From contig NZ_JAENIM010000021.1 in the NCBI RefSeq assembly GCF_016595495.1, forward strand, positions 186,001 to 250,000: a stretch of 64,000 nt of DNA, read 5' to 3'. The notes under the pieces are model-generated. The model was not told the origin of the DNA. It saw only the letters and a program-made list of their open reading frames with translations, and did not search any database. Positions within the stretch are counted from its first letter, which is position 1, and each line of letters opens with the position of its first letter. The position numbers were made by a program, and so were the translations under genes. This stretch comes from Persicirhabdus sediminis. GTDB lineage: Bacteria; Verrucomicrobiota; Verrucomicrobiia; Verrucomicrobiales; Akkermansiaceae. Positions 8,678-26,351 of the stretch are shown here, in pieces.

Positions 8678-9463
8678 TTAGTTAGCCGCAGTGGCTTTAC
8701 GTTTATCAAGTGATTCTTTTGACTGAGCGTCGGCCCATTCGTCAAATTCGTTAGCGTCGATCACCTCAATGTAGCCAAGCATGTTAGCGTGACCTTCACC
8801 GCATAGCTGGGCACAGACCACTGAGCTTTCCATGATTTTCACTGGCTTGAACCAGATAGGAATGTCTTTACCTGGAATGCAGTCCTGTTGGATACGCATT
8901 GGTTTGATAGCGAAGTTATGAATTACATCCTTAGAACCTAACTTAACAATTGCTGAGCGATTGACAGGAAGCTTGAGGCTTGAGCCGAGGAAGTCGTCAT
9001 AACCATTAGGATCATTAGGATCAAGCCCAAGTGGGTTAGCGTCGCCAATAAAATGCGGCGAGGTCCGGCCAAACACACCATCTTTGCCTGGATATTGATA
9101 ACGCCACGCATATTGTTCACCCACAACGCGTACTCGAGTCGCGTTAGGCTCACGGCGAAGGACGTCTGAGAAGCTCTTGGCGTCAGCGCGCTCAGCCCAC
9201 AGCGGGAAGGCAAAACCTAGCAAGAAGATCGCTTCGACGATAACCACACCAATTTCGAGATGAGATGAGGCGTGGTTTTTCACACCTGAGTATTCAGCTT
9301 TTGGATTGCGGCGGTGCCAGAATCGGAAAAGTGTATAGAGGAAGAAAATCGTCCAGCCAACAAAGAGAACAAGCATCAACCAATGAACAAATTCGTTCTG
9401 TTGGTCAACTTGACCTCCGTGCTCGGAGTAGTTTTCAGGTAAGCCAAGGTATTTGGTAAGCAT
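8678..9463 (-). CDS. coxB: Cytochrome c oxidase subunit II (CuA subunit)
   Basis: 261 residues. Two membrane helices (about 26-48 and 68-90) are followed by a periplasmic cupredoxin domain. All CuA ligands are present: His182, Cys217, Cys221, His225 and Met228, with the CAQLCGEGHANM motif. The aromatic electron-entry patch (GEQYAWRYQYP) is kept. There is no fused cytochrome c domain, so electrons must arrive from separate cytochromes such as those encoded upstream in this block. It is the last gene of the minus-strand oxidase operon, an unusual place since coxB often leads; two small membrane proteins separate it from subunit IV. Confidence 0.96.
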   Translation of the reverse strand: MLTKYLGLPENYSEHGGQVDQQNEFVHWLMLVLFVGWTIFFLYTLFRFWHRRNPKAEYSGVKNHASSHLEIGVVIVEAIFLLGFAFPLWAERADAKSFSDVLRREPNATRVRVVGEQYAWRYQYPGKDGVFGRTSPHFIGDANPLGLDPNDPNGYDDFLGSSLKLPVNRSAIVKLGSKDVIHNFAIKPMRIQQDCIPGKDIPIWFKPVKIMESSVVCAQLCGEGHANMLGYIEVIDANEFDEWADAQSKESLDKRKATAAN

Positions 9464-9489: not shown

Positions 9490-9702
9490 TTAGGAAACAG
9501 GTGGATGGTCTTGCAGCTCAGGTGGGAGCGCTGCGGCAGATCTACGAGCGATGCGGATGATGAAAAAGAAAATCGCACACAAGACCGGCATGATGATGCA
9601 CAGCATGAAGAGCATGGCGTAGCCAGCTGCTAGGCTGTCTTTATGGTCCGGGCCATTGCCCATGCATACGTAGCAAGCGAGTGTGTTGATTTGATAGATC
9701 AT
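9490..9702 (-). CDS. Small membrane protein with an N-terminal CxxC motif
   Basis: 70 residues. A short N-terminal segment carries CYVC at about residues 10-13, then comes a single strongly hydrophobic helix (about 26-50) and a basic, then polar tail. Its start overlaps the stop of the preceding gene by 4 bp (ATGA), so the two are translationally coupled. The location between oxidase subunits IV and II suggests an accessory subunit or a metal/redox assembly factor. CxxC beside a membrane helix could bind copper or form a disulfide, but this is inference. I do not recognise a named family. Confidence 0.7.
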   Translation of the reverse strand: MIYQINTLACYVCMGNGPDHKDSLAAGYAMLFMLCIIMPVLCAIFFFIIRIARRSAAALPPELQDHPPVS

Positions 9703-9908
9703 AACTGAGCGCTGAGTTTTTTGATTTTAGAATAAAAAAGCACGCCGTAGACAGGCAGGATAATCATGCCGAGCCCACATGCTCGGCCGATGATTTTGAT
9801 CATCGAATCATCACCGGTTGGCTCGAGCGTGAATGCCCAAGTGGTGATGAATGCACAAAATAGCGTGGCTAGAGTGACAAAGAGAATGTGGAAACCTTTC
9901 AGAGACAT
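9699..9908 (-). CDS. Small two-helix membrane protein of the oxidase operon
   Basis: 69 residues with two predicted membrane helices (about 6-27 and 38-60) joined by a short acidic loop (EPTGDDS). It starts 2 bp after the stop of subunit IV and overlaps the next small gene, so it belongs to the oxidase operon. Size and topology fit a small structural or assembly subunit of the oxidase. No catalytic or metal-binding motif is visible and I cannot name the family. Confidence 0.7.
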   Translation of the reverse strand: MSLKGFHILFVTLATLFCAFITTWAFTLEPTGDDSMIKIIGRACGLGMIILPVYGVLFYSKIKKLSAQL

Positions 9909-9910
9909 GA

Positions 9911-10273
9911 TTAGCTTTCGGTTACGATGCCGCTTCTAAAGACATCTTCGTTTTCAAATTGGATAGGATCAGCTTTGCTCCAGCCGATGAGCCAGACCAT
10001 GCAGATGGTGAAAATCACGGCAATTCCCATGGAGAAATATACCATAAATTTCTCGCCGGTGAAGTGCATGAAGATCATTAGAACCAGCGATGCCTTGATG
10101 GTAGCAATGAGCAAACCGAGGATAAGGTCAGCAGTATCAAAGCCGTGAACACCGATATCGAGAGCTGGAATCTTAGCCACCGCTACGGTGACCACCGTAC
10201 CAATAAACAGGATTGCTCCAACAATCAGGAACTTCTTCTGTGACTTTTTAACTTCTTCAATTGAATGAGCCAT
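9911..10273 (-). CDS. Cytochrome c oxidase subunit IV family protein
   Basis: 120 residues with three hydrophobic helices (about 16-34, 44-68 and 78-98). The LVLMIFMHFTGEKFMVYF segment is characteristic of prokaryotic subunit IV (CyoD/CtaF/CoxD superfamily). This subunit has no cofactor and helps assembly or stability of the subunit I/III core. It lies 28 bp downstream of the subunit III gene in the same operon. Assignment to the superfamily is confident; the exact symbol is not. Confidence 0.88.
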   Translation of the reverse strand: MAHSIEEVKKSQKKFLIVGAILFIGTVVTVAVAKIPALDIGVHGFDTADLILGLLIATIKASLVLMIFMHFTGEKFMVYFSMGIAVIFTICMVWLIGWSKADPIQFENEDVFRSGIVTES

Positions 10274-10301: not shown

Positions 10302-11927
10302 TTACATCAAATACATGATTGGGAACAGGAAGATCCACACCAGATCGACAAAGTGCCAGAACAGGCCACCGACTTCCACGCGGTTAGCCAGCCACTCTGG
10401 GTTCTTGCGGTACATGCCAGTGCCGAAGAAGAGATAATAAGCTAGTACAATAGCACCACCAATAACGTGTAGGCCGTGTAGACCAGTCATGGTGAAGTAG
10501 ATGGCGTAGTAGTTATTCCAAGCTGGAGTAAATTTGGATTCAAACAGAACCTGCTCGCGGGGAATCGTTAGCTTAGGGAAATTGTATTTACCGCTCTTGT
10601 GATCAGCGCCGGTGAAGCCAGCAGTCATGCTCGGGTAAGCGTCTTGGATCTCTTGGTGAGTCAGGTCGTGCAGGTCTTTGCCAGCTTTTTGCAGCTCTTC
10701 GAGAGCGACAATTTCTTTCCAGCCCATACGGTAGCGATCAGCTTCGGTAGGCACACGCTTGGCGACTTCGTTGCCGTTAGCGTCTGTCTTTGTCTTGTAC
10801 TCTTCCAGCAAGTGCTGTTCGAGTTTTTCCACTACGATGAGGTGGTTATCCCAGAGAGTTTTGATGCCTTCATCTTTCAGCAACCATGAGTTTGCAATGG
10901 CAGCTTCAGGGTCGATGCCCATTTTTTCAGCCTGCATCACCGTGTGGCGGAATGAAATCGCATCCACATCGAGAACGATATCACTATTGCCCATGGTTCC
11001 AGCTAGCGTCGTGCCGTCGTTGAGCACGATAGATCCGCTGTCCCCTTCTTTGTCGCTTGCACTCTTGTAGATTTTCTTAGGATCAATGTGCAGCGCGATA
11101 GGAGAGGTTGCTTTGAATGTCAGTGAGCCCACAGCAGTCTTCAAATCACCAGCTGGAATAGCGTCCACCAGCTCTTTGTATTTGTCGTTTTGCAGCTTCT
11201 TGCGCTCGGCGTTGCGGTTGTTCTCGCCAGGAGTTTCCTCCTTAGCGAATTTCCATGACTGACGCAGCTTATCTTCGAGGATTTCAGCATTGTTAGCGCG
11301 GTTGTTAATAAACAGCTCTTTAGCTTGGCTGAGCATGTCCACGGAAATGGCTTGGCCAGCTGGGAAGATTTCCTCGCCGTCAACCACCAGAGCTTTTTCT
11401 AGCTGGAGTTTGCCGTCCCACTCAGCTGAAAAATCAGCGTAGTATGACTTGGAAAACTTAAATAGATCGATGGATACAGTTTCCGCCTCGATAGTAATTT
11501 CAGTGCCTTTGAGACCCTCATGCGGGTGCAAATGACCTTCAACCACGGCGTAGTCGTTAAGACGCACCGCTTGGTGGTGGAACTTGGCATTGTACTCCAT
11601 GCCCTTGAGCACCATGAACAATCCAGCGCAAAGCACCGTGATGCTCATATAGATGCGGAACTTCGTCAGCTCGCGCAATTTCAATGACGCCCAAGCCATC
11701 ACCACAGTAACGGATGATGCAATGAGGATGAAGGTATTGATCAAACCTGGCAGCACTGGCAGTGCGCGCTCTGGCCACGGGTAATCTGCGTAAACACGCA
11801 GGAAGATGTAGGCTGAGAACAGGCCGCCGAAGAGCATGACCTCTGAGGCCAGAAACAACCAGATAGCAATCTTGGAGTTCGTTAAGCCAGTGTCCTTACG
11901 AGGATTGACGATATATGGAATTTCCAT
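10302..11927 (-). CDS. coxC: Cytochrome c oxidase subunit III with a ~340-residue insertion
   Basis: 541 residues against the usual 190-280. Residues 1-117 hold the first three helices of a five-helix subunit III (including LFLASEVMLFGGLFSAYI and the FMVLKGMEY end of helix 3). Residues about 471-541 hold the last two (MTGLHGLHVIGG and the C-terminal WHFVDLVWIFLF). Between them is a hydrophilic block of about 340 residues, rich in Lys, Glu and Asp, partly helical, with a short beta segment (IVLNDGTTLAGTM). If the N-terminus is cytoplasmic, the block faces the periplasm, near where cytochrome c meets subunit II. The frame is continuous, so this is an insertion and not an assembly error. Subunit III normally stabilises the D proton channel. 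Confidence 0.93.
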   Translation of the reverse strand: MEIPYIVNPRKDTGLTNSKIAIWLFLASEVMLFGGLFSAYIFLRVYADYPWPERALPVLPGLINTFILIASSVTVVMAWASLKLRELTKFRIYMSITVLCAGLFMVLKGMEYNAKFHHQAVRLNDYAVVEGHLHPHEGLKGTEITIEAETVSIDLFKFSKSYYADFSAEWDGKLQLEKALVVDGEEIFPAGQAISVDMLSQAKELFINNRANNAEILEDKLRQSWKFAKEETPGENNRNAERKKLQNDKYKELVDAIPAGDLKTAVGSLTFKATSPIALHIDPKKIYKSASDKEGDSGSIVLNDGTTLAGTMGNSDIVLDVDAISFRHTVMQAEKMGIDPEAAIANSWLLKDEGIKTLWDNHLIVVEKLEQHLLEEYKTKTDANGNEVAKRVPTEADRYRMGWKEIVALEELQKAGKDLHDLTHQEIQDAYPSMTAGFTGADHKSGKYNFPKLTIPREQVLFESKFTPAWNNYYAIYFTMTGLHGLHVIGGAIVLAYYLFFGTGMYRKNPEWLANRVEVGGLFWHFVDLVWIFLFPIMYLM

Positions 11928-11973: not shown

Positions 11974-13815
11974 TTAGGCGTCTTTATTAGTTTCGGCTTT
12001 TGGCTTCACAGGCGCTTGCCACTGCGGGTAGTAATCTTCGTCCACTTCTGGGCGTGAGTACTCGTAAGGGCCACGGTAAACGATTGGCTCCTTAGTAAAG
12101 TTGCCATGTCCTGGAGGGGTTGGAGTTGCCCACTCGAGAGTGGTCGCATTCCACGGGTTATCATTTTCCACCTTCTTGCCCCAAATCCATGCGGAGAGAA
12201 CGTTGATGATGAATGGCAGCTGGGCGACAGCGAGCAGCCAAGCAGATGTGGACATCAGGATGTTGAGGTCAATGTGTTCGGCGACTACTTTACCAAAAAC
12301 GTTAGCGCTTTCTGGGTCAGTCACCACATAGGCGTCACCACCATTATACCAGCGGCGGTGGAAACCAGCCATGCCCTGAATCAGCATTGGGAAAAACAGG
12401 AAGTTGATGAGAATCAATGACGGCCAGAAGTGCAAATGAGTGAGCACCTTGCTCATGTAACGCCCGCTGATTTTTGGATACCAATGATAGATACCAGCAA
12501 AGAGACCAAACAGAATGCCCGGTGCTACCACATAGTGGAAGTGACCGATGACGTAGTAGGTATCGTGCAAGTGCAGGTCGAGCATGCTGAATGCCAGCGG
12601 CAGACCAGTGAGACCACCGATACCAAACATTGGTAGGAAGGCACAGGCCCACATCATTGGTGGTGTGAAGCGGATAGATCCACCCCAGAGTGAAATGATC
12701 AAACAAGTCAGCAGAATCACTGACGGGATAGAAATCAAGTTAGTGGTAGTTTGGAAGAAGGTAGAAATCGCTGGTCCCATGCCAGTCATGTACATGTGGT
12801 GAGCCCACACGATGAATGAAAGGAAACCGAGAACGAGCACACCGTAAACCATGGACTTATATCCCCACAGCGGGCGGCGTGTGTTTACTGGGATAATTTC
12901 AGCCACACAAGCAATCGCTGGCAGCAGCAGAACGTAAACCTCTGGGTGACCGAGGAACCAGAATAGGTGCTGGAAAAGAAGTGGTGAACCACCACCAGCT
13001 GCATTTACCAAACCAATCTCGCGGTGATAGAGACCACTTGGCTGGAAGAAGCTAGAATCCCATACGCGGTCGACCAGCTGCATGATGCCAGCTACTTCGA
13101 GTGGTGGGAATGAAAGAAGAAGGATGAAACCAGTAACGAGCATTGCCCATACCAAGAATGGCATGCGGAACCATGTGAGGCCCTTAGCGCGCAGGTTAAT
13201 GATCGTGGTGATGAAGTTTACCGAACCGAGCAGCGATGAAGTGATCAAAAAGACCATGCCAACAAGCCACTGAGTTTGACCAGTCATCCACTGGTTTGGG
13301 TGCTGAGTATCAGCGAAAAATGAAAGCGGTGGGTAGTTTGTCCAGCCAGACTTAGCAGCGCCAGATGGCAAGAAGAAGCTAGCACACATGATGATGCCAC
13401 CCACTAGGTAAAGCCAGTAGCTGGCCATGTTGAGTTTTGGAAAAGCCATGTCCGGCGCACCAATCTGCAGCGGCGTCACGTAGTTACCAAAGGCACCAAA
13501 TCCGAGCGGCACCACCCCAAGGAAAACCATGATCGTTCCGTGCATCGCACCAAACATGTTATAGGTCTCGCCCGGCATTTTACCATTCTGCAGCCACTGA
13601 GCCTTCCAGGTATCATTGAGGAAAAAGCTCATCCATTCCGGCACAGGCTCGTTAGGGTAAGCGATGCTCCAACGCATCATAATCATCAGGTAAAAACCAA
13701 ACAACAGAAACAACATGGCGGTGAGGCCGTATTGAATCCCGATCGTCTTATGATCGGTTGAGAAGATATACTTCTGTATGAATCCAGGGTTGTGGTGATC
13801 AGCGTGGTCGCTCAT
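11974..13815 (-). CDS. coxA: Cytochrome c oxidase subunit I (A-type haem-copper oxidase)
   Basis: 613 residues, twelve membrane helices. It reduces O2 to water at the haem a3-CuB site and pumps protons. Ligands are intact: His92 and His427 (haem a), His425 (haem a3), and His290, His339 and His340 (CuB), with Tyr294 in HPEVY. The D-channel Asp122 (IGAPDMAFP) and Glu292 are kept, so it looks like subfamily A1. In the K-channel helix, however, the usual PTGIK motif reads PSVIL, placing Leu368 at the conserved lysine in a gap-free alignment. It is the first gene of its operon, downstream of a terminator and a possible promoter. Confidence 0.97.
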   Translation of the reverse strand: MSDHADHHNPGFIQKYIFSTDHKTIGIQYGLTAMLFLLFGFYLMIMMRWSIAYPNEPVPEWMSFFLNDTWKAQWLQNGKMPGETYNMFGAMHGTIMVFLGVVPLGFGAFGNYVTPLQIGAPDMAFPKLNMASYWLYLVGGIIMCASFFLPSGAAKSGWTNYPPLSFFADTQHPNQWMTGQTQWLVGMVFLITSSLLGSVNFITTIINLRAKGLTWFRMPFLVWAMLVTGFILLLSFPPLEVAGIMQLVDRVWDSSFFQPSGLYHREIGLVNAAGGGSPLLFQHLFWFLGHPEVYVLLLPAIACVAEIIPVNTRRPLWGYKSMVYGVLVLGFLSFIVWAHHMYMTGMGPAISTFFQTTTNLISIPSVILLTCLIISLWGGSIRFTPPMMWACAFLPMFGIGGLTGLPLAFSMLDLHLHDTYYVIGHFHYVVAPGILFGLFAGIYHWYPKISGRYMSKVLTHLHFWPSLILINFLFFPMLIQGMAGFHRRWYNGGDAYVVTDPESANVFGKVVAEHIDLNILMSTSAWLLAVAQLPFIINVLSAWIWGKKVENDNPWNATTLEWATPTPPGHGNFTKEPIVYRGPYEYSRPEVDEDYYPQWQAPVKPKAETNKDA

Positions 13816-14078: not shown

Positions 14079-14846
14079 TTATTCAGCAGCCTTTTCAGGA
14101 ACTAATGTTCTCTTATTGACTAGAGATGTAGGATCTAGCGCTTCGCCTGGGAGAGCGACGGCGTGATCAGCTTGCAACTCAGCAGCAGTGAATGATTTAG
14201 CACCAATTGTATTGGAAAGCGCAATCGCTTCTTTAGCCATATCTACTGAGATGATATCGCCACTATCGTTGCCCCATGCGTTACGCACGTAAGTCAACAG
14301 CGCAGCGAGTTCTGCAGGTGAGAGGCCTTGGCCCATAGCAGCCATGACACCATCGTATGATTTTCCAGCTACTTCGATTGGTCCATTGATACCATTCAGA
14401 GGAATCAGCGCCAGTGTCTGGGTATGACCAGTCACCCACTCAGATCCTGCAAGCGGCGGGATACCTGTACCACCTGCACCATTTGGCTGGTGACAGCTAG
14501 CACACTTAGTTGAGTAAACTTGCTCACCTTTACGCATGAAGGCTTCCATTGCCTCAACCGGCTTATCCACAGCTCCACCGCCCGGCTGTACAGCACGTAC
14601 GTATTTGACTGGGGCTGATTTTTGATAATCGAACATGTGCCCACCAGCTCCAATAACGCCACCTGCAATCAGCAGAACAATAGCGCTACCAATGATGACC
14701 CAGAGCGAGAGTGGCTCGAGACCTTCTTCCTTGAGACGCTTTTCACGCGCAGCTGGAGAATTCAGTCCAGTGTGAGCATCAGTCACATTGGTGGTCTCAT
14801 CGAGATCCGGCTTATCCGGAAATGAATTGTTATTCGTGTCAGACAT
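14079..14846 (-). CDS. Membrane-anchored monohaem cytochrome c
   Basis: 255 residues. A polar cytoplasmic N-terminus of about 46 residues is followed by one membrane helix (SLWVIIGSAIVLLIAGGVIGAGG), then a periplasmic class I cytochrome c domain with one CASCH haem site at about residue 115 and a likely axial Met in GVMAAMGQ. The C-terminal ~60 residues are an extra polar tail. It resembles the C-terminal part of CcoP-type subunits and lies right after CcoO-like and CcoN-like genes. A role in carrying electrons from ACIII to CuA is plausible because CoxB lacks its own cytochrome domain. Confidence 0.88.
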   Translation of the reverse strand: MSDTNNNSFPDKPDLDETTNVTDAHTGLNSPAAREKRLKEEGLEPLSLWVIIGSAIVLLIAGGVIGAGGHMFDYQKSAPVKYVRAVQPGGGAVDKPVEAMEAFMRKGEQVYSTKCASCHQPNGAGGTGIPPLAGSEWVTGHTQTLALIPLNGINGPIEVAGKSYDGVMAAMGQGLSPAELAALLTYVRNAWGNDSGDIISVDMAKEAIALSNTIGAKSFTAAELQADHAVALPGEALDPTSLVNKRTLVPEKAAE

Positions 14847-14884: not shown

Positions 14885-15625
14885 TTATTCTTCTTCGTCT
14901 TTGTTTGGGTTATAATTGATGCTATCGGGCACTGGCTGGTCACGCTTGAGTGACAGCAGGTAGCTAGTGAGCGCTACAGCCTGATCGTTAGGGATGACCA
15001 TATATCCTGGCTTATTTTCCAGCGGCAGAGCTATATCAGTGCCTTGGCCTGAGTTTTTCACCTGCTCAAAGAATCCCAGCTGAGATGGGCAATTTGACCA
15101 TTTTTCGTGAGTTTTCGTCACCGTATTGCGCGGGTTATAGAAGTGCAGGTAGAGGTACATCTCAGGGCTGATGCCAAGCGCTTTTGCTTTAGCATTGATG
15201 CGATGTCCAACGTTGCTGAGATCTTGGCCGATGCGGTTGGTACCGATCTGGGCAAATTTCTCACCTTGGTAATCCCAAGCTGTAGTTTCGCGGCGTGTAT
15301 CACCACGTTTTTCGTCATCCATCACGCCAGCGAAATCTGGGCGCCAGAGATCGGTAACGACCACGGATGAGCTAGCTGAAAGCGAAGTTGGGCGAATCAG
15401 CTGGGTGTGACAGTTATAACAACCATTAGAGGCGTAAACCTCGGCACCTTGTGAAATCAGGCCTGCGTTGACTGGATTAAAGTAAACCTCAGATTTGCCA
15501 GAGTCTTTGTCGCCCATTGGCAGAGGAGCCGCATCTGTCATCTTGATAGCTGGTACCAAGAGCATGAAGATGAATGGCAGTCCAAAGCTAGTCAGCATTA
15601 AGATGATAAAGTATTTCAATTTCAT
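14885..15625 (-). CDS. CcoO/FixO-like membrane-anchored monohaem cytochrome c
   Basis: 246 residues. One N-terminal membrane helix is followed by a periplasmic domain with the CcoO signature around the haem site (GAEVYASNGCYNCHTQLIRP). The regions W-R-P-D-F and the late GYMVIPNDQAVALTSYLLSL are also CcoO-like and could supply the axial Met. CcoO normally passes electrons from CcoP to the haem b of CcoN in cbb3 oxidase. Here the haem motif is intact although the neighbouring CcoN-like protein seems to have lost its redox centres, so the partner may instead be ACIII or the aa3 oxidase. It is co-directional with and 39 bp from the CcoN-like gene. Confidence 0.9.
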   Translation of the reverse strand: MKLKYFIILMLTSFGLPFIFMLLVPAIKMTDAAPLPMGDKDSGKSEVYFNPVNAGLISQGAEVYASNGCYNCHTQLIRPTSLSASSSVVVTDLWRPDFAGVMDDEKRGDTRRETTAWDYQGEKFAQIGTNRIGQDLSNVGHRINAKAKALGISPEMYLYLHFYNPRNTVTKTHEKWSNCPSQLGFFEQVKNSGQGTDIALPLENKPGYMVIPNDQAVALTSYLLSLKRDQPVPDSINYNPNKDEEE

Positions 15626-15664: not shown

Positions 15665-17149
15665 TTAGTTGTTATCAATCAATCCTTCACGACCGTGTGG
15701 GCCAGTAGCGGAATGATCATGAGTCAGCAGAGTTGGGTGATTGCTGCGGCGTCCGAGGCGCAGCCACATCAGCGTGAGATGGAAGAGGAAGAACACGTTA
15801 GAGAGCAGCATGAATCCCCAAACGATAGAGGTAGCGATAAGGAATGGACGAGTCGCCATGAACGCGCTGTACCATGGTTGCTCCCAATCTTGCTGAGCCA
15901 CACCTTGAGAAATGCTACCAAACAATGCGATGCAGCCGAGCAGCGTGAGCACACCGTAGATAGAAAGCCAGAAGTGCCAGCGGATCATACGGCGTGAGAT
16001 CCACTCACGGCGAGTGATGCGAGGAACGATGAAATAAATCGCACCAAACATGGTCAAGCTGAAGAATCCGTAGAGGCCAACGATATCCAGACCGTAACCA
16101 GCTGAAGTAAACTGCGTGATGGCGATCATATCAGGACGCGCTAGGAAGGCGCCAAAGATAGCGTAAGATAGCAGACCAATCACGCCAGCTACTGTAAAGC
16201 GCAGTGATGGGCTGTGAGCCACAGTCTGAGCTTTGCCTTTGAGTGTCTTGAACAGACTTACAGTCAGCGCGAGCACTGGGATAACCACAGCGATCGTAGC
16301 TGCCGCACTGGTGAATGGCATGAATGTTGGGATTGGAGCACCCATCAGCACTTGCATGCCAGCCCATGGAGCAAGTCCAGCCAACAGCCAGAATGCCACT
16401 TGTGAGAGTGAGTAATTGTACACCGCACGACCGGTGATTTTTGGCACCAAGTAGAAGGCCGCAGCCACACCAATTGGTACAAAGAAGAGCAACATCAGCG
16501 CTGAGCGGAACCACGCAGCGGAAGCGGTTACCATCAGTGGGTGGATGTCGAAAACGTGCACAAACAGGTTCGCAGCAAGAAATACCCATGGGAACCAGAT
16601 GATTGCTCCGAGCAGGAACCACTGAGAAACGTAGATGTGCTGCCAGCGGCGAACACGGAAGTGAATCATAGACCAGATCGCAATCGCTGCATATGTAGCT
16701 AGCATTGGAGCCCAGATGAATTCAGGGAAATCCATCCAGTAGATACCAGATCCTTTTCCAGCTAGAATGCAGATGGTGCCCAGGGCAACCAGAACATTCC
16801 AGACGTGTCCAGCTACCAAGATAGCTACTGAACTACGGCTTTCCTGGCGAGACAGACGGGCCATCAGCCAGATGGCGACGCCAAATGCAGCCTGCAATCC
16901 CCATCCGTAGATCAGGGTATTCAGGTGAGCTGGGAAAACTCTACCATAATTTAAGGCTGAGCAATTTCCCAGAAAATCTGGGCTGTGCGCCTTCATGGTG
17001 GCGATCATCGCCAAAACGAGTGATACGGCTAACCAAGCGGCCCCACTGGTGAAGAAAAACATCACTGGGTGACGCAGAGAGTGGTCAATAAGCGCTCTCT
17101 GCTTGCCGTGCTCGGCTGAAGGAATGTGGCTATCGGGTGCTGATTCCAT
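15665..17149 (-). CDS. CcoN-like (cbb3 subunit I) protein lacking most haem and CuB ligands
   Basis: 494 residues, about twelve membrane helices, with clear CcoN sequence pattern in several helices (FYLVPKITGRAVYNYSLSQVAFW; ALL-type helix packing; IYFIVPRITRREW). His75 in RVFPAHLNTL matches the first low-spin haem ligand. The remaining sites are changed: the WYGHN CuB His is Ser216, the two CuB His of the G-x-HHL motif are Gln266 and Val267, the active-site Tyr is Ala260, and the HVH haem ligands are Leu354 and Ile356. The protein can hardly be an oxygen reductase. Length and frame are intact, so it is not a pseudogene. It follows actF and a small membrane gene, and precedes CcoO-like and cytochrome c genes. 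A scaffold role in a supercomplex is my inference. Confidence 0.85.
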   Translation of the reverse strand: MESAPDSHIPSAEHGKQRALIDHSLRHPVMFFFTSGAAWLAVSLVLAMIATMKAHSPDFLGNCSALNYGRVFPAHLNTLIYGWGLQAAFGVAIWLMARLSRQESRSSVAILVAGHVWNVLVALGTICILAGKGSGIYWMDFPEFIWAPMLATYAAIAIWSMIHFRVRRWQHIYVSQWFLLGAIIWFPWVFLAANLFVHVFDIHPLMVTASAAWFRSALMLLFFVPIGVAAAFYLVPKITGRAVYNYSLSQVAFWLLAGLAPWAGMQVLMGAPIPTFMPFTSAAATIAVVIPVLALTVSLFKTLKGKAQTVAHSPSLRFTVAGVIGLLSYAIFGAFLARPDMIAITQFTSAGYGLDIVGLYGFFSLTMFGAIYFIVPRITRREWISRRMIRWHFWLSIYGVLTLLGCIALFGSISQGVAQQDWEQPWYSAFMATRPFLIATSIVWGFMLLSNVFFLFHLTLMWLRLGRRSNHPTLLTHDHSATGPHGREGLIDNN

Positions 17150-17188: not shown

Positions 17189-17482
17189 TTACTGCGCGGC
17201 TGGTTTATCAGATGCGCTTGGCTTCTGCTTAAGCAGCTCAGCACCCACCTTATCGAAGGCAGTTGTTGGGTTTGCTTCTTTTAATGCAGCCTCCTCAGCA
17301 GCATTGACCTCTTGGTTGACCTTCATCCGGCGCTCGGCGTTTTTATCTTCGGCATCCACCTTGCCACAAACTGAGCAAGGCACGATGACGACGGCTAAAA
17401 TGCCAAAGGCTACGAAGAGACCCAGACCAAACCAAAATGTGCTGAATCTGCGGAAGAATGTATCTCGTGGATTGGAGTCCAT
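17189..17482 (-). CDS. Small membrane protein with a CxxC motif, downstream of actF
   Basis: 97 residues. A short basic N-terminus precedes one membrane helix (about 14-35), directly followed by CSVC (about 36-39) and then a long charged, probably helical tail rich in Ala, Glu and Lys. The topology would place CSVC at the membrane surface. It lies 30 bp after actF and 39 bp before the CcoN-like gene, so it is part of the ACIII transcription unit. It may be an accessory or assembly subunit. No named family is recognised. Confidence 0.7.
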   Translation of the reverse strand: MDSNPRDTFFRRFSTFWFGLGLFVAFGILAVVIVPCSVCGKVDAEDKNAERRMKVNQEVNAAEEAALKEANPTTAFDKVGAELLKQKPSASDKPAAQ

Positions 17483-17512: not shown

Positions 17513-18940
17513 TTAGTTGGAAACGTTAGCTGACTCGAGGATACGAGCGTCACGGTTTGGATAGAGCGATTGCTTACCGAGGTTACGCAGCAGGATGAAC
17601 ATGAAGAATGACCCCACAGTGACAAAGGCTAAGATATCTCCCCAGAAGGCTCCGCTGAACCATAGCGTTGGCTCAAAGCCATTCATGGTGCTGAGTGATG
17701 GAGCGCGCTCAGGGATGACGATGATGTACATATCGAGAATATGCAAAATCAGCATGTAAGAGGCAAAAATGCAGGCCAGAGCTGGCTTACGCTTCATGTA
17801 ATGTGGCAGCATGAAGACAAATGGCACGGCGAAGTGACCAAATACCAGGATGATGTTAGCTACGTTCCAGCCCTCTGTATTTCGCAGCAGGAAGTAACGA
17901 GTCTCCTCGGTGATGTTTGCGTACCAGATGAGGAAGAACTGAGAGAAGTTCACATACGCCCAGAAGACGATGAAGGCGAACATCAGCTTACCCATAATGT
18001 GGTAGTGCTCGGCGCTAGTTACCGTTTTCAGGTACCCCTTACTGCGCAGCCATGTGAGCACGAGGATCAATACTGCCATTGAGTTCAATACAGAACCAGC
18101 AAAGTAACATACTCCCCACATAGTTGAGAACCAAGTGTAGTCGAGAGCCATCAGCAAATCGAAAGCGATGAAACTGATAGACAGACCGAACATGATCAAG
18201 CCAGCTGGCGCCCAGTAGCGCAACTGCAGTGTGCTCTTAGCACTTGGATTGTCGTCAGTATCTTGTTTGACCGACTTATTTTTCAGCCAGATAACAAAGC
18301 CACCGAGGCCCACAAAGTAGAGTGCCATGCGTACGTACCACCAGTTGAGGTTGACGTAGAAATACTTCACATAGAGCAAGTGATCATGTGGATCGTGAGA
18401 CGCGTGCAGGCCATCTTTAGCGTAGCTACCAAAGATACCACCACCGATGGCATCTTTTGCCGCCGCGTAGTTGAAGCCAGTTTCACGGTGAATATTCATC
18501 CACTCAAATAACTTAGACTGCACCTGCGGGAAGAAGAATGGAATCGCGATGATCGCCATCCATGGGAAAACTGTAGCCAGGTTCTCCATCAGACGACGAA
18601 TCGACACGCCCCAACCTGAGTTAGAAACATGATGCAGAATCAGCCAGAAACAACCGCCGAATGACAGTGTAACGAAGTAAGCAAAGGCGAAAAGCCATGA
18701 GTAGGCGTAGTTGCCGCGGATGTCACCGCCGGGAGCGTCAGCTACTGGCTTAGTGATGAAAGCTGCAGCCTCAGATGGGCTTTGCTCTTGGTAGCTACCG
18801 GCAAAGAAAAGCAGGTAAACGCTGAGAATCAGACCAACAAATGCCAGCCCACCAAAAATCATCATTGGCTTAGCCAACTTTGACTTATCGATGTGTTCAC
18901 CGTCAGCCGGGATATCCTTAGATGTAACGAAATGTGCCAT
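17513..18940 (-). CDS. actF: Alternative complex III subunit ActF
   Basis: 475 residues with about ten membrane helices, matching the ActF subunit that supports the quinol-oxidising membrane core of ACIII (quinol:cytochrome c/HiPIP oxidoreductase). Recognisable features are the N-terminal helix, the YSWLFAFAYFVTLSFGGCFWLILHHVSNSGWGVSIRR segment (given here only as landmark, around residues 80-115), and repeated WY/FF-rich helices. It starts 24 bp after the actE stop. In characterised complexes ActF lacks cofactors and pairs with ActC; proton translocation by the pair has been proposed. Confidence 0.92.
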   Translation of the reverse strand: MAHFVTSKDIPADGEHIDKSKLAKPMMIFGGLAFVGLILSVYLLFFAGSYQEQSPSEAAAFITKPVADAPGGDIRGNYAYSWLFAFAYFVTLSFGGCFWLILHHVSNSGWGVSIRRLMENLATVFPWMAIIAIPFFFPQVQSKLFEWMNIHRETGFNYAAAKDAIGGGIFGSYAKDGLHASHDPHDHLLYVKYFYVNLNWWYVRMALYFVGLGGFVIWLKNKSVKQDTDDNPSAKSTLQLRYWAPAGLIMFGLSISFIAFDLLMALDYTWFSTMWGVCYFAGSVLNSMAVLILVLTWLRSKGYLKTVTSAEHYHIMGKLMFAFIVFWAYVNFSQFFLIWYANITEETRYFLLRNTEGWNVANIILVFGHFAVPFVFMLPHYMKRKPALACIFASYMLILHILDMYIIVIPERAPSLSTMNGFEPTLWFSGAFWGDILAFVTVGSFFMFILLRNLGKQSLYPNRDARILESANVSN

Positions 18941-18964: not shown

Positions 18965-19594
18965 TTACTTGCTCTCGTTTGCTGCGGTCTGTAGGGCGCG
19001 AACGTAGGCAATGATCGCCCAGCGGTCGCGTGTGGAAATGTTTGCTGCGTAGCCACTCATCTGCCTTACACCGTGAGAGACGACGTTGAACATCTGGCCA
19101 TCTGGGTAAGTCTGAGAACCGAAGCTCTCCAGCTTGAGGTTAGCTACACCAGTGATGCCGATTTTAGCGACGATGCCTTTGCCGTCACCAGCTTCGCCGT
19201 GACATGGTAGGCAGGAAATGTTGTAGCGCTCTTGGCCGCGGCGCAGGAAGGCTGCGGTATTCTCAGCTGTCAGCCCGAGTTCTTCAGGCATGCCAGTTCC
19301 GTAAGTGCCGTCGATCTGGCCAGTGTGGTAATAGCCCACACCGTTTGTGAATCCGTAGCCGTTAGCATCTTCAGCATTGGCTTCAAAGCCGCGCGGAATG
19401 GTTCCCACTACTGGCTTACGAGCACCCATGCCGTCTTGGAAAAACAAGCTAGGTTTCTGAGCTTTTACGTAATCTTGTTCGTCCATATCTGGGAAGATAC
19501 GGAGCGGTCTCTCACTGAATTTTTGCCCGCGGAATCCGAAGATACCGATGACCATCACGATGATCAATGTGTAGGCGAGAAGAAAATAGCGCAT
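18965..19594 (-). CDS. actE: Alternative complex III subunit ActE (monohaem cytochrome c)
   Basis: 209 residues. An N-terminal hydrophobic segment acts as signal or anchor, followed by a periplasmic cytochrome c domain with one CLPCH haem site at about residue 132 and a possible Met ligand in GVRQMSGYA. ActE is the exit cytochrome of ACIII that hands electrons to the terminal oxidase or to soluble carriers. It is placed between actD and actF as in other act operons. Confidence 0.92.
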   Translation of the reverse strand: MRYFLLAYTLIIVMVIGIFGFRGQKFSERPLRIFPDMDEQDYVKAQKPSLFFQDGMGARKPVVGTIPRGFEANAEDANGYGFTNGVGYYHTGQIDGTYGTGMPEELGLTAENTAAFLRRGQERYNISCLPCHGEAGDGKGIVAKIGITGVANLKLESFGSQTYPDGQMFNVVSHGVRQMSGYAANISTRDRWAIIAYVRALQTAANESK

Positions 19595-19663: not shown

Positions 19664-20218
19664 TTAGTCTTCCTCTTCAACGAGTTCGATATTGGTTCCA
19701 CCGGCTTCCTCGAGTAGCTCTCGAGTAGCGTCGGCATTAAAGTTAGGGTCGCGTGCTTCCACCGCGATGAAGAACGCGTCATCAGTCACGCGCTTGAACT
19801 GCTTGCTCGCAAACAGTGGATGGTTGAGACGTGGCAGGCCCATCAGGCCAAGCACTCCAAACAAGGTAGTGAAACCTGAAAGAAGAATCGTCAGCTCAAA
19901 TAAGATTGGGAAAAAGGCCGCTGTAGTGAAAATGTTAGCTGGCTTCGCCTGAACTACGGTTGGGTAGATCACCACCTGAGTGGTATAGGCAAGCGTGAAG
20001 CCTGTGATGAGACCAAGGGTACCACCACAGAAAACCAGGTAAGGAAGGATGGACCGTTTCATGCCCATCGCATTGTCTAAGCCGTGAATTGGGAACGGCG
20101 AATAACAATCCCACTTTTTAAAGCCGGCATCACGTACCTTTTCAGCTGCTTTATAGAGGGCAGATGCGCTCTCATATTCAGCGAGGTAACCATAAACGCG
20201 TTTTGCAGATGTGCTCAC
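19664..20218 (-). CDS. actD: Alternative complex III subunit ActD (DUF3341)
   Basis: 184 residues. The N-terminal ~55 residues form a soluble domain with the family pattern YGYLAEYESASAL...GF/YDCYSPFPIHG. Two membrane helices follow (about 63-85 and 100-130) and then a polar C-terminus ending in acidic residues. ActD has no cofactor; it covers the cytoplasmic face of the ActC membrane core. It starts 28 bp downstream of actC. The assignment rests on the SPFPIHGLDNAMG signature. Confidence 0.93.
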   Translation of the reverse strand: MSTSAKRVYGYLAEYESASALYKAAEKVRDAGFKKWDCYSPFPIHGLDNAMGMKRSILPYLVFCGGTLGLITGFTLAYTTQVVIYPTVVQAKPANIFTTAAFFPILFELTILLSGFTTLFGVLGLMGLPRLNHPLFASKQFKRVTDDAFFIAVEARDPNFNADATRELLEEAGGTNIELVEEED

Positions 20219-20245: not shown

Positions 20246-21724
<1,479 letters not shown>

Positions 21725-21772: not shown

Positions 21773-24700
21773 TTAGTGCATGGAGATGGTGGCTTTACCA
21801 ATCGCCTTAGCGTCTGGCATCTTGGCATTTGGATTCTTAACGCGTGCCAAGTAAGTGGTACGCGGCATGGTGCCAATGTAGTTGAGTAGGGCGTAGTTAC
21901 GCTTCGAGTCACGAGCGCGAACCACGGTCTCTTTGTCACCATTTTGGATGTTACCAAAGGTAATGGCTCCAGCTTCACAGGCGTCTTGGCAAGCCACGCG
22001 CACTGAGTTCACTGGCGGACGCATTTCTGCATCAGAAACGCTAACTTCAGCTGAAGGAACTCCAGCAGCCACTGACTTGTTCTTAAGAACTGACTTGGCC
22101 TTGATCTTAGCTTCCTGCAGGCGCTGCACACAGTAAGTACATTTCTCCATCACACCACGCATACGAACAGAAACGTTCGGGTTGCGCTGCAGGTGTGGAG
22201 CTTCGCCCACTTGCTTCTCACCGAGAGGTCCTTTGTAGAGGTTCTTGTGAACTAGCGGGTTGCGCTTGTTGTAATCAAAGAAGTTGAAGCGACGTGCTTT
22301 GTACGGGCAGTTGTTAGCGCAGTAACGAGTACCGATACAGCGGTTGTACGCCATTGTATTGAGACCGTCTTCTGAGTGAACGGTAGCATTCACTGGGCAA
22401 ACAGTTTCACATGGAGCGCTTTCACACTGCTGACAGGCTACCGGCTGAGGAATCATCTCTGGGTTAGACTCGTCGTAAACTGGCACCTGATGACCGTGGC
22501 CATCATCTTCAGTGATCAGTTGACCATTGATGTCTGTTTTCTGCACCGCAGCAAAGTAGCGGTCCATACGGATCCAGTGCATCGCGCGACCAATCGCCAC
22601 CTGAGTTTTACCCACAACTGGGATGTTGTTTTCCGCCTGACAGGCTACCAAACAAGCATTACAGCCAGTACAGCTGTTGAGGTCGATGGTCATCGCCCAC
22701 TGCTGACGTTTGTCAAACAGGTGCTCGTCGGCTTGGTACTTATCGTGCCAAGTGCTTGAGCCTTTCTGTTTGTAGAGAGAAATATTTGGCGGTGCGTGTG
22801 AATCAACACCTTGCTTTTTCACGCCTTCTAGCTGCTTCTCGAAGCTGCCTTTGTGCTCCACGTCGTTAGTGGAAATCTCGCGAGCAATCGCGCGACCGTA
22901 CATTGAGTGGTGCTCCTGAGTCACCGCGGTGCTGTAGCGTTTATCGAGGTCTTCGATCTTCGCGCCAGTGGCGATGTATGGAGTTTCAGCGGTGCGTAGC
23001 AGATAGGCATTGAAACCTGTGTTGACGCCTACTTGGCTAACATTCGCTGCACCTTCAGTGCTGAGGCCTAGCTCGTTGTGCTCGTCGTACCCTTGACCGT
23101 AACCAAGTGCGATTGAGATCAAATTATCAGCCTGACCAAATGCCACCATCACTGGGATTTCCAGCTCGGCGCCATTGACCACAACTTTGATCACTGGCTG
23201 GGCGCGATCGCGACCTTCACCGTCAGGACCAACTGGTGCGTTAGGCTTGGAAACATCCACCATGCCGTACAGCTTACCTTTTGGCTCCAGCTGCACGAGT
23301 TTCTCATAGAGTCCCAGATCTTTAGCTGTCTGCGGCGAAATCATCGCGCAGTTATCCCAAGTGATCTTGGTTAGCGGATCCGGAGCTTCCTGCAACCAGG
23401 CGTTGTTGATGTAGCGACCATCCAGAACTGATGGATCCGCTAGGAATGAAATTTCTAATGCCTCAACTGTAGGAGCAGCTACTGCCGCGCCAACTACAGA
23501 TGATAGATCAGCTGCACCCACTTGAGCGGCTGCATAAGCTCCCTTATCTGAGAATCCGTCGCGCAGCAGTTTTGTCCACGCGGCGTCGCCTGCCCCACCA
23601 ATGCCTTCAAAGGTCTTGCGAACCTCTTTGTAAGCAGGTGAAAGCTTGGCGCCTTCGGTGATAGAGTTGAAAAGTTTGCTACCAGTTAGCAGAGCAACCA
23701 AAAGATCCAGCTCAGAAACACCACCGTAGAGTGGCAGAATCATTGGCTGAACAACGGTGTAACGACCGTCAGCAGCATAGGAATCACCCCAACTCTCGAG
23801 GTAATGAGCAGCAGGAACGTGCCAGCTAGCTGCATTGGCGGTGGCATCGAGGCGTTCGCCCAAATGCACCAAGTTTTTCAGTTTCTTAGCGGCAGCGGCA
23901 AATCCAGCGGCGTCGTACACTGGGTTAGCTGGACCAACGAGGATCACATTTTCCACGGCACCAGAATCGATGTCAGCGAGCAGATCAGTTAGTTTGCCGT
24001 AAGCACCAGAGTTAGTCACTACTGGCTTGAGTGTTTTGCCGTAGCTGCCGAGCTTCTGGTTGATCGCAATCACCAGCTGCTGGACGGCTTCACTGTGACG
24101 TGAGCCAGCTACTACCACACTGTGACCAGCGTGTGCTTTCAGGTCAGCGGCACATTCTTTTACCCACTTCTGCTCGAACTCACCGAGCGCGCCAGCTGGA
24201 ACCTGAGTGCTAACACCCAGCTCAACAGCAACTGCCGCAGCGATGCGAACAATCTGGCTTGGAGCAATGCGCAGGCGGTGATCCGCCATGCCACCTGTCA
24301 GGCTGAAGATACCTTCAGCGATATAAAGACGATTGATGCGGTTTTTGTCCGGCTTCTGGTCGTACTGAGGACCTTCAACAGCGCGGTTGTTATAAAAACC
24401 ACTAACTGGACCCTGCTGGTCCATTTCTAGAAAATCAGCATCTAGCGAGAGAATGCGCTCAGCCTTGCTGTAATCAGCAATAACAGCTGATCCTTTGCCA
24501 AATACTTTTTCGTTAGCTAGCTTCTGACCTTCGCCAGCTAGAGCTTCGTATTTGTAAAACTTAGATCCGCTATGCTTGGCGGCAATCTCACCTACCAAAC
24601 GGTCGCGAGTCGCTGAGTTATCTTCACCAAATACAAAGGCTGTCTTATTAAGATCAGCGGAGAGCTCTTTGGCAAATTCTTCAAACTCGCCACGAGTCAC

Positions 24701-25189
24701 TGTTTTACCAGCCTTAACAAAATCACGTGAACGAGCTGGATCGTACATGTTAAGCACAGATGCCTGAGCAAATGTACCTGTACCGCCCTGCTTGCTGAAC
24801 AAGCGGTTAGGCTCAATCTTTGTAGGACGACCTTCGTGTGTAGTCACTACTAGAGATGCCGCACCTTTGGCAGATGGCATCGACGAAGCATAATATAGTG
24901 GCTTCCCTGGGATCACCCATTCAGGTGCCTCAGCGAAAGGAACGATCAATGATTCAGGGCGGCGACATGACGCCAAACCAAATCCAGCCAAAGCTGTAGA
25001 TGCCCCCATCAACTTCATGAATGAACGGCGAGTTACCTCGCGATCTTCTTCGGTCTCAATCTGGGCTGAACCCTCTGGGAATTCACGTTCCAAATACTCA
25101 CGGAACTGTGGCGTATCCTCCAGCTGGCCAAGACTACGCCACACTTTCGTGCCGGTCTCTTCTGCCTTATTCATCTTGCGGTCGCTCAT
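21773..25189 (-). CDS. actB: Alternative complex III subunit ActB (molybdopterin-like and FeS)
   Basis: 1138 residues. A twin-arginine-type motif (TRRSFMKLMG, residues 53-62) followed by a hydrophobic stretch marks export of the folded protein. The first ~800 residues resemble the molybdopterin-oxidoreductase fold but are thought not to bind a cofactor in ACIII. The C-terminal part (from about residue 830) is a four-cluster ferredoxin domain with Cys groups CTGCNACLVAC, CQQCESAPCETVCP, CIGTRYCANNCP and CTYCVQ...CQDAC. Electrons from quinol pass through these clusters to ActA. The protein lies between actA and actC, the standard order. Confidence 0.95.
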   Translation of the reverse strand: MSDRKMNKAEETGTKVWRSLGQLEDTPQFREYLEREFPEGSAQIETEEDREVTRRSFMKLMGASTALAGFGLASCRRPESLIVPFAEAPEWVIPGKPLYYASSMPSAKGAASLVVTTHEGRPTKIEPNRLFSKQGGTGTFAQASVLNMYDPARSRDFVKAGKTVTRGEFEEFAKELSADLNKTAFVFGEDNSATRDRLVGEIAAKHSGSKFYKYEALAGEGQKLANEKVFGKGSAVIADYSKAERILSLDADFLEMDQQGPVSGFYNNRAVEGPQYDQKPDKNRINRLYIAEGIFSLTGGMADHRLRIAPSQIVRIAAAVAVELGVSTQVPAGALGEFEQKWVKECAADLKAHAGHSVVVAGSRHSEAVQQLVIAINQKLGSYGKTLKPVVTNSGAYGKLTDLLADIDSGAVENVILVGPANPVYDAAGFAAAAKKLKNLVHLGERLDATANAASWHVPAAHYLESWGDSYAADGRYTVVQPMILPLYGGVSELDLLVALLTGSKLFNSITEGAKLSPAYKEVRKTFEGIGGAGDAAWTKLLRDGFSDKGAYAAAQVGAADLSSVVGAAVAAPTVEALEISFLADPSVLDGRYINNAWLQEAPDPLTKITWDNCAMISPQTAKDLGLYEKLVQLEPKGKLYGMVDVSKPNAPVGPDGEGRDRAQPVIKVVVNGAELEIPVMVAFGQADNLISIALGYGQGYDEHNELGLSTEGAANVSQVGVNTGFNAYLLRTAETPYIATGAKIEDLDKRYSTAVTQEHHSMYGRAIAREISTNDVEHKGSFEKQLEGVKKQGVDSHAPPNISLYKQKGSSTWHDKYQADEHLFDKRQQWAMTIDLNSCTGCNACLVACQAENNIPVVGKTQVAIGRAMHWIRMDRYFAAVQKTDINGQLITEDDGHGHQVPVYDESNPEMIPQPVACQQCESAPCETVCPVNATVHSEDGLNTMAYNRCIGTRYCANNCPYKARRFNFFDYNKRNPLVHKNLYKGPLGEKQVGEAPHLQRNPNVSVRMRGVMEKCTYCVQRLQEAKIKAKSVLKNKSVAAGVPSAEVSVSDAEMRPPVNSVRVACQDACEAGAITFGNIQNGDKETVVRARDSKRNYALLNYIGTMPRTTYLARVKNPNAKMPDAKAIGKATISMH

Positions 25190-25238: not shown

Positions 25239-25955
25239 TTATCGGTGACAGGTGAAACAGCTCTCTTTCGGCTGAATGCTCCACTTCTCTTTTAGGGCCT
25301 TGCCCAAAGCCAGCTGGGCATCTTCTCCAGCCTCAACTTTGATCCCTAACTCAGGATGCGCTGCGAGATATTCAGCCGCATCAAACTTCAAATTATACAC
25401 TTCTTCTAGCGGTCGCAGGTGCTTCTCTGGCGCGCGGTGACACTCCAAACAGAAATCCATGCTCAGGCTCTTATCATGCCAGACTTTGCGCATTTCATCG
25501 ACCTGCCCGTGACAGCTAACACATGAAATACCGCGGTTAAGGTGAGCTGAGTGATCAAAGTAAACGTAGTCGGGCGCTTTGTGAATGCGCACCCACTCGA
25601 TGGGTTTACCTGTATACCCTGCGTAACTCTCATCAACTGCTGCTCGCAGTGGTTCAAGCTTCGGATTCTCCGTTTGTACGTGCTGGTGACACTTCCAACA
25701 AGTGTCAGCCGTAGGCACATTGGCATGGCCGCTCTCTTCCACAAAACTGTGGCAGTAACGACAATCAATACCGTTCTGAGTGACATGCAATGCGTGATCA
25801 AAGGGGATAGGCTGGTCCGGCTGATAGCCGACCCTCTGTGCTTTCGGAGTTGCATAATATGCAAAACCCGCAGCTACACCTAATGCGATACACGCAACAG
25901 ATCCTGCGATCTGAAACGGAACTAAATTGGACCAACGTGGAAAGAAATTAGCCAT
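25239..25955 (-). CDS. actA: Alternative complex III subunit ActA (pentahaem cytochrome c)
   Basis: About 238 residues. Five haem c sites are visible: CRYCH, CWKCH, CVSCH, CLECH and the C-terminal CFTCH. One N-terminal helix (about 10-35) anchors it to the membrane. An in-frame TTG at 26021 would lengthen it by 22 residues. I choose the ATG at 25955 because ActA proteins usually begin close to the FPRWSN motif. ActA accepts electrons from ActB and passes them to ActE. It is the first gene of the act operon, and no convincing promoter was found upstream. Confidence 0.93.
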   Translation of the reverse strand: MANFFPRWSNLVPFQIAGSVACIALGVAAGFAYYATPKAQRVGYQPDQPIPFDHALHVTQNGIDCRYCHSFVEESGHANVPTADTCWKCHQHVQTENPKLEPLRAAVDESYAGYTGKPIEWVRIHKAPDYVYFDHSAHLNRGISCVSCHGQVDEMRKVWHDKSLSMDFCLECHRAPEKHLRPLEEVYNLKFDAAEYLAAHPELGIKVEAGEDAQLALGKALKEKWSIQPKESCFTCHR

Positions 25956-26351
25956 GACTTCTGCGGGGCTTTTAGGGCTTGTTAAAAATTTCACAAGCAA
26001 ATTTCGCGCAAAATTTGACAATTAGTACTCAGCTTATCGTTAAAAATACTCTACTAAACGCCTGATCTCAGGCCATTACAGCATCCACGCCCTGCAAACG
26101 ACCGTTCCTAAACGCAATTTGACAAATAAAGAAGTACATTTCTCCTTTAGTCTATAAGGCATAGAGGCAAAAAAACCAGTGTCAGCAGAGCTGACACTGG
26201 TTGCTTTTTGCTATTCTTATCCAGCTACCAAACAAGGTAATCACCAAGCAATTAGCCAGCTTTCAAAAAACTTACGTCAGTATAATGGAGCCAACTCTCC
26301 ATTTTTGCTAGAAAACCTGATAGATTAACCATTCAGCCCGACACACTCAGA
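25956..26351. other. Intergenic region upstream of actA
   Basis: About 396 bp. It holds a strong terminator (26168-26209), listed separately, and presumably the act operon promoter between about 25960 and 26165. A 24-codon frame at 26068-26139 has a GGAG too close to its ATG and is not called. The part from 26210 to 26351 shows nothing I can interpret. Confidence 0.5.
26168..26209 (-). terminator. Intrinsic terminator downstream of the 26352-26903 gene
   Basis: A perfect 12-bp stem (26175-26186 with 26190-26201, 3-nt loop) is followed on the minus strand by seven T. The plus side also has a T run, so it may act both ways. It insulates actA from the upstream gene. Confidence 0.9.

Follow-up and report, generated by a model that had tools for sequence, protein, structure and literature searches.

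The gene at 15665..17149 on the minus strand of the 64,000-nucleotide stretch of Persicirhabdus sediminis DNA analysed here (the window) encodes a 494-aa protein with the fold of a C-family haem-copper subunit I that lacks five of the six ligand histidines and the active-site tyrosine (hereafter CcoN*). Judging from sequence, we consider it fairly probable that CcoN* is an emptied C-family subunit that now acts as a scaffold for two cytochromes, CcoO* and CcoP*, which would wire ACIII to an aa3 oxidase.

Fold and ligand positions of CcoN*

CcoN* is read from an uninterrupted frame with an ATG start and no internal stop codon. Its product scores 130.2 bits against Pfam COX1, above the gathering cut-off of 34.8, and 89.9 bits against the NCBIfam ccoN model TIGR00780, below the equivalog cut-off of 583.15; three scanned ACIII-linked homologues with all ligands in place reach 235-254 bits and likewise fall under the latter. 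Matches to CcoN chains bear out the first-pass annotation in its description of a full-length, in-frame protein aligning to cbb3 subunit I. The structure prediction that it proposed as a check gave an AlphaFold2 model (58-sequence alignment; pLDDT 92.7, pTM 0.93) that superimposes on 3mk7_D in VIA-align with Z 46.1 and rmsd 2.2 over 447 residues at 20% identity. Foldseek and VIA-align rank cbb3 subunit I first, NorB next and other haem-copper oxidases after, and the modelled CcoN* has the complete CcoN fold. Trp39, Trp94, Trp213, Pro272, Pro274, Arg377 and Trp383 are among the residues conserved alike in copies that carry all six histidines and the tyrosine (intact) and in degenerate ones.

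Ligand positions were read from an alignment to the solved CcoN chains 6xkw_n and 9g6b_A, which covers most of CcoN*, and residues were assigned to cofactors as we assume for the CcoN family. The low-spin haem ligand His75 is the one ligand histidine retained. The CuB histidine positions hold Ser216, Gln266 and Val267, the active-site tyrosine position holds Ala260, the haem b3 histidine position Leu354 and the position of the second low-spin haem b histidine Ile356, so that every replacement falls where it had previously been placed. The authentic CcoNO fusion of the same genome has all ligands at the seven positions (HHYHHHH), and the degenerate CcoN* is thus not the sole CcoN there; no CydA was found in this genome. 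The ligand loss is not a chance feature of one sequence, since every one of 30 aligned sequences (the window and 29 others) misses at least three of the six histidines.

We also looked for ligands at other places in the protein. A conserved His392, together with His115 and His457 among near relatives, sits away from the metal positions, and a relocation of histidines to the metal sites, which would have overturned the first-pass reading, is not what the alignment gives. A NorB-like enzyme was rejected as well: the motifs H-X-Arom-X-E and H-H-X-Arom-Arom, given for NorB in a section of PMC3084760, are missing from CcoN*, and neither is possible at its place because the CuB-site histidines are Ser216, Gln266 and Val267. 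At the alignment position where we presume the conserved cbb3 active-site glutamate to lie, CcoN* has Phe332 and the genome's own CcoNO has glutamate; this residue is absent from all 20 intact ACIII-linked copies. The active-site glutamate is called mandatory in authentic cbb3 oxidases in a passage of PMC5492636 (after Muntyan 2015). Judged by its ligand content, CcoN* should be unable to act as an oxygen reductase, in agreement with the earlier conclusion.

Operon organization

The genes run on the minus strand in the order ActA-F, orfX, CcoN*, CcoO*, CcoP*, CoxA, CoxC, CoxD, two small ORFs and CoxB. ActA to ActF are all present in order, and all six match chains of solved ACIII, including 6f0k and 6btm. 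ActA (25239..26021) has five CxxCH motifs and aligns to residues 211-405 of 6btm_A only, lacking the N-terminal domain found in F. johnsoniae ActA. It is followed by ActB (21773..25189; profile and ACIII structure match), the NrfD-like subunit ActC (20246..21724; 6f0k_C, E 2.8e-177), ActD (19664..20218; PF11821), the monohaem cytochrome ActE (18965..19594; 6f0k_E, E 1e-29) and ActF (17513..18940; 6f0k_F, E 1.5e-50). Between actF and CcoN*, orfX (17189..17482) encodes a short form of 97 aa with no haem motif; homologues at the same position have a similar N-terminal part and usually a C-terminal cytochrome c domain, CxxCH being found in 61 of the 80 nearest loci (53 of them scored CcoP*-like) and absent from 12, with seven cut by an edge. 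Homologues at the orfX position include L163:8450-9358 and L178:10506-11276.

CoxA (11974..13815), an A-type (aa3-like) oxidase subunit I, has the HPEVY, HH and HFH ligand motifs and scores 549 bits against CtaD_CoxA, under the equivalog cut-off of 670.75. The subunit III CoxC (10302..11927, 541 aa) matches COX3 in two stretches with a long insertion between them; the stop-to-stop frames of its homologues span 225 to 635 aa. CoxD, subunit IV (9911..10273), is supported by profile matches, and the two small ORFs before coxB (9490-9702 and 9699-9908) have homologues in many relatives and no Pfam family. The subunit II CoxB (8678..9463) carries a CuA-type motif without a fused cytochrome c, and CxxCH is absent both from it and from 31/31 CoxB rows of relatives.

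The same gene order recurs in relatives. Among the 80 nearest loci (the best 80 of 378 relatives, Verrucomicrobiota as far as named), 44 have the complete arrangement from ActA to CoxB, and the others among the 12 commonest arrangements, which together cover 65 of the 80, miss genes at one end or at both; strains of Haloferula and Luteolibacter contribute to the 80. The preservation of CcoN* in an operon joining ACIII to an A-type oxidase, proposed from the window, is seen across an order and beyond.

CcoO* and CcoP* cytochromes

CcoO* (14885..15625, minus strand) is a membrane-anchored monohaem cytochrome c whose CxxCH motif comprises Cys69, Cys72 and His73; the protein barely reaches the FixO gathering score (30 versus 29.6). 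In an alignment with 3mk7_B, the methionine that we take to be the axial ligand of the CcoO haem is replaced by Cys179, leaving the combination of CxxCH and axial methionine incomplete in the window. The 'intact CcoO-like cytochrome' of the first-pass annotation thus keeps its CxxCH but has lost its axial methionine. CcoP* (14079..14846, minus strand) is a monohaem cytochrome c with CxxCH at 115-119 and with Met168 present. Compared with cbb3 oxidases (3mk7, 6xkw), the window shares the whole CcoN fold and the CcoO- and CcoP-like genes that come after it; it differs in that CcoN* misses five ligand histidines, the active-site tyrosine and the conserved glutamate, and in that CcoP* has a single haem motif where canonical CcoP has two.

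The CxxCH of CcoO* is present in 54/54 proteins encoded beside degenerate CcoN and in 25/25 beside intact CcoN (five of the 25 not ACIII-linked), that of CcoP* in 54/54 and 19/19, and Met168 of CcoP* in 53/54 and 19/19, respectively. The CcoO axial position is methionine in all 25 partners of intact CcoN; among the 54 partners of degenerate CcoN, 34 have Met there, 13 have Cys, two His, two Arg, and one each Ser, Ala and Lys. The position is Cys in 80/80 sequences when the window is taken with 79 of its nearest loci, and CcoO* of these near relatives possibly holds a His/Cys-ligated haem c. Replacement of an axial methionine by cysteine is expected to lower the haem potential.

Ligand states among relatives

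A search of 38 genomes (the window's own and relatives) matched CcoN* in 36, 35 of them strongly (E 3e-67 or better); the G027 match is weak and has the size of an ordinary CcoN, G001 and G002 gave no match, and no row of the search has an internal stop. Across 288 genomes of the phylum, 92 have a match, some of these being ordinary CcoNO fusions, and 196 have none; the 20 listed of these 196 all carry genus code g3, in the window's family.

Ligands were scored in 94 rows. ACIII genes occur in the fetched stretch of 73, a set that leaves out some matching genomes such as G034 and G075; the other 21 are 13 short context-free loci and one contig-end locus, which are degenerate, and seven fully ligated loci without ACIII. 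The ACIII-linked copies comprise 20 with six histidines and the tyrosine and 53 degenerate ones. Degenerate rows retain at most three of the six histidines, and the replacements at positions 75, 216, 260, 266, 267, 354 and 356 vary by lineage (for example HSAQKFI, AHSSRRW, QQGRHQQ and SESSHFV). L152 and L184 retain both low-spin haem ligands with the binuclear site gone (HNSQRYH), which suggests, as to the order of loss, that the binuclear site can go first. His75 is found in 81/81 near sequences, in all of which the second low-spin ligand is Ile, Val or Leu. Among 30 sequences of the order, three have Phe at position 75, and other degenerate copies carry Ala, Gln, Ser, Phe, Arg or Leu there. 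The degenerate CcoN* is neither private to this genome nor recent.

Four distant members of the phylum (L147, L148, L166 and L167) have fully ligated CcoN-like and CcoO-like genes with no ACIII in the stretch. A seven-CxxCH protein adjoins the CcoN-like gene in three of the four, Gln replaces the cbb3 glutamate, and they possibly form another unclassified C-family group. Genomes G054 and G134, in which the ACIII-linked copy is degenerate, encode a second, non-ACIII CcoN-like protein (L164, L165) that has all its ligands and carries Gln at the glutamate position. Two intact copies (G154:C56:25725-27143 and G193:C148:31482-32888) have one in-frame TGA each within the profile match, which is probably the gene's end, given open frames of 503 and 495 aa at these places.

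Phylogeny of ligand loss and selection

A first tree of all 94 rows contained long branches, and a more careful tree was made from 74 rows with the ligand columns excluded. The 20 rows left out (L144, L145, L146, L155, L156, L160, L161, L164, L165, L166, L209, L214, L215, L221, L223, the outgroup CcoNO and the short L007, L011, L018 and L021) are 16 degenerate rows, including all methanotroph copies, and four fully ligated outgroups. On the careful tree the degenerate state amounts to three changes (bootstrap range 3-3), the starred branches alone forcing two. An AU test rejects the grouping of all 51 degenerate rows in one clade (p 0.0016); it does not reject such a grouping for the 50 that remain without L158, whose near neighbours are intact (p 0.256), and we therefore claim at least two losses and not three. 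The outgroups on the tree are fully ligated, and a re-gain of six histidines and the tyrosine is implausible. The ligands were thus lost at least twice, and three times on the best tree.

Nei-Gojobori dN/dS, calculated on stop-to-stop frames, is 0.05-0.29 in ten degenerate CcoN pairs, some of which share a member, and 0.05-0.14 in the four intact pairs for which dS is finite, two further intact pairs being saturated. The window enters no pair, as its nearest relative is only ~60% identical. By these ratios, degenerate CcoN is under purifying selection in relatives, somewhat relaxed, and a 24-sequence alignment of the order retains 47 invariant columns. Comparison of homologues, as the first-pass annotation had advised, thus reveals a shared loss, with purifying selection apparent in pairs of relatives. 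A recent pseudogene, or a recent product of decay, is excluded by these ratios and by losses common to whole clades. The earlier reading is borne out in part; it missed the fully ligated relatives and the repeated loss.

The ancestral subunit and its link to other oxidases

In two small genomes, G038 (1.7 Mb, 99% complete) and G181 (1.3 Mb, 98%), the intact ACIII-linked CcoN is the sole PF00115 protein, and CydA (cytochrome bd) was not found in either. With no other haem-copper oxidase and no CydA in these genomes, the ancestor was likely a working oxidase and intact copies likely reduce oxygen. Against this stand the lack of the mandatory glutamate in the 20 intact copies and the scores of the three scanned ones, which fall under the NCBIfam ccoN cut-off.

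Loss of ligands goes together with an A-type oxidase gene at the locus, CoxA lying within the fetched stretch at 31/53 degenerate loci versus 1/20 intact loci. The 22 degenerate loci that have no CoxA in the stretch, one of them (L184) cut off by the end of its contig, suggest that docking to aa3 is not a constant property of the module; elsewhere, each of these 22 genomes encodes another PF00115 protein scoring above 430 bits. Another PF00115 match is also present in 18/20 genomes with intact copies, 16 of them above 430 bits, suggesting that a further oxidase allows the ligands to be lost without compelling their loss.

Discussion

We propose that C-family (cbb3-like) oxygen reductase genes joined the ACIII operon in Verrucomicrobiota and that CcoN* descends from the catalytic subunit. 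In lineages with an A-type oxidase for oxygen, CcoN would have lost its haem and copper ligands with the membrane fold kept, leaving a presumably cofactor-free scaffold that holds the monohaem CcoO* and CcoP* against ACIII; CcoN is the membrane protein that binds such subunits in cbb3 oxidases. Electrons would then pass from menaquinol through ACIII (ActB/ActA/ActE) to CcoO*/CcoP* and on to the CuA of CoxB and aa3, with the CcoN*O*P* module lying within the supercomplex. Among the roles suggested at first pass, that of a repurposed scaffold best accommodates the fold, the operon and the ligand loss.

The anatomy of the flanking subunits points to the module as the probable wire between ACIII and aa3, since ActA lacks the N-terminal domain and CoxB has no CxxCH. 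The ACIII-aa3/caa3 supercomplexes of F. johnsoniae and R. marinus likewise combine ActA-F with an A-type oxidase, whereas here the genes of a CcoN*O*P* module intervene. As the name caa3 implies, cytochrome c is fused to CoxB in that oxidase, unlike the CoxB of the window. According to a section of PMC8552683, the proposed route in F. johnsoniae relies on a sixth, mobile haem located N-terminally in ActA, that in R. marinus leads from ActE to cytochrome caa3, and F. johnsoniae ActE can be deleted with electron transfer unimpaired; from this last result, extra cytochromes may be dispensable and off the path. Three further observations weaken the scaffold-and-wire reading. Cys at the CcoO* axial position throughout the 80 nearest sequences is odd for a wire that feeds an oxidase, the invariance of His75 among near sequences is unexpected of a simply empty pocket, and dN/dS is somewhat above that of intact pairs. 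More tentatively, repeated in-place emptying may have produced a cofactor-free membrane hub, with ACIII, CcoN*O*P* and aa3 forming a supercomplex with a third kind of wiring in which the His/Cys haem of near-relative CcoO* gates or senses electrons; this fuller version is possible, and we regard it as doubtful.

CcoN* could instead be an assembly or docking piece only, serving ACIII-aa3 cohesion or the stability of CcoO*/CcoP*, with electrons passing directly from ActE/ActA to CuA. The residues conserved in intact and degenerate copies alike fit such a structural role, as does replacement of the CcoO* axial methionine in 20/54 partners of degenerate copies, but a structural role would not need the invariant CxxCH of CcoO* and CcoP* (54/54 each) or the CcoP* methionine (53/54), and no CoxB row (31/31) offers a cytochrome c motif of its own, so that we think this unlikely. 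CcoN* could also retain a single low-spin haem b on His75, its second ligand being atypical or absent, and take part in electron transfer; this would explain why His75 is kept in 81/81 near sequences and is in keeping with the two low-spin ligands of L152 and L184; the aliphatic residue at the second position in the same 81, the Phe at position 75 in 3/30 sequences of the order and the other replacements in further degenerate copies make it improbable.

An ion- or quinone-handling subunit, which the first-pass annotation had offered as an alternative to a scaffold, would use a polar network of His75, Gln266, Lys/Arg267 and Asp/Glu355 in the old metal cavity. Asp/Glu355 is indeed found in 80/81 and Lys/Arg267 in 70/81 near sequences, and a Fisher test over 67 degenerate copies associates positions 267 and 355 (p 4e-7). 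In a phylogeny-aware pairing, however, the association is not significant, with about 1.8 of seven independent pairs concordant and none discordant (median p 0.5); the two positions come 8th among 858 column pairs ranked by correlation, the window has Val267 and five methanotroph copies lack the charge pair. A compensating K/R267-D/E355 pair was accordingly rejected as an established feature and is kept as a suggestive lead only; nothing was found that speaks directly for the handling of quinones or ions, and we give this role very little weight. Least credible of all is a gene in the course of decay: the branch of a degenerate copy is in some cases the longer one (L158, 0.61 versus 0.03-0.09 for its intact neighbours), but the frames are free of internal stops, dN/dS in relatives is 0.05-0.29, 47 columns are invariant and the gene is retained in whole clades.

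Cofactor-poor paralogues are known to be kept in respiratory enzymes, as with CydA' or CydB beside CydA. The scaffold proposed for CcoN* resembles these as a redox subunit kept without its haem ligands; it differs in being a haem-copper subunit I that was apparently emptied in place more than once and has fully ligated orthologues in relatives. Among the open-access literature matches listed, none was found to describe a CcoN without ligands next to ACIII, in line with the first-pass annotation, which knew of no described example. According to PMC3084760, sequences without the six conserved histidines were removed from its data set, and such proteins may be absent from that classifier for this reason.

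The finding bears on published oxidase assignments. Passages in PMC8498564 and PMC6688271 place a cbb3-type oxidase adjacent to ACIII in verrucomicrobial methanotrophs and Opitutaceae: the former attributes a cbb3-type oxidase, with genes adjoining ACIII, to every verrucomicrobial methanotroph isolated except one, and the latter reports that in strain Kam1 cbb3-type oxidase genes are found together with those of ACIII. Five genomes of the class carry pmoA-family genes (PF02461), and the position near actF and the NOP order of the published calls match these genomes, which we infer to correspond to the published strains. Their ACIII-linked CcoN has one of six histidines in each case, and the CcoN profile matches only once per genome. 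They also encode PF00115 proteins of other kinds: two of ~430 bits (CoxA-like), one or two with frames of 563-568 residues, and a further one with both NorB motifs; of the two NorB-like proteins scanned, L241 has no NCBIfam match and L243 matches ccoN weakly (28.2 bits). In the methanotroph G107 (L215), actF lies ~7 kb from ccoN* and the operon is interrupted. Because a degenerate CcoN-like copy is all that these five relatives have, 'cbb3 beside ACIII' in methanotrophs needs re-examination, and if the identity holds, the published methanotrophs would have no working cbb3 oxidase at the ACIII locus. More generally, annotations of a 'cbb3, high-affinity oxidase' beside ACIII in Verrucomicrobiota, methanotrophs among them, should not count as evidence of high-affinity oxygen respiration unless the ligands are checked.

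The proposed module also bears on how electrons may leave ACIII for an oxidase without an N-terminal ActA haem domain or a cytochrome fused to CoxB. Textbooks present the haem-copper subunit I as the catalytic core of aerobic respiration, and an orthologous series within one operon, from fully ligated to ligand-free, allows the role of its fold without metals to be asked directly.
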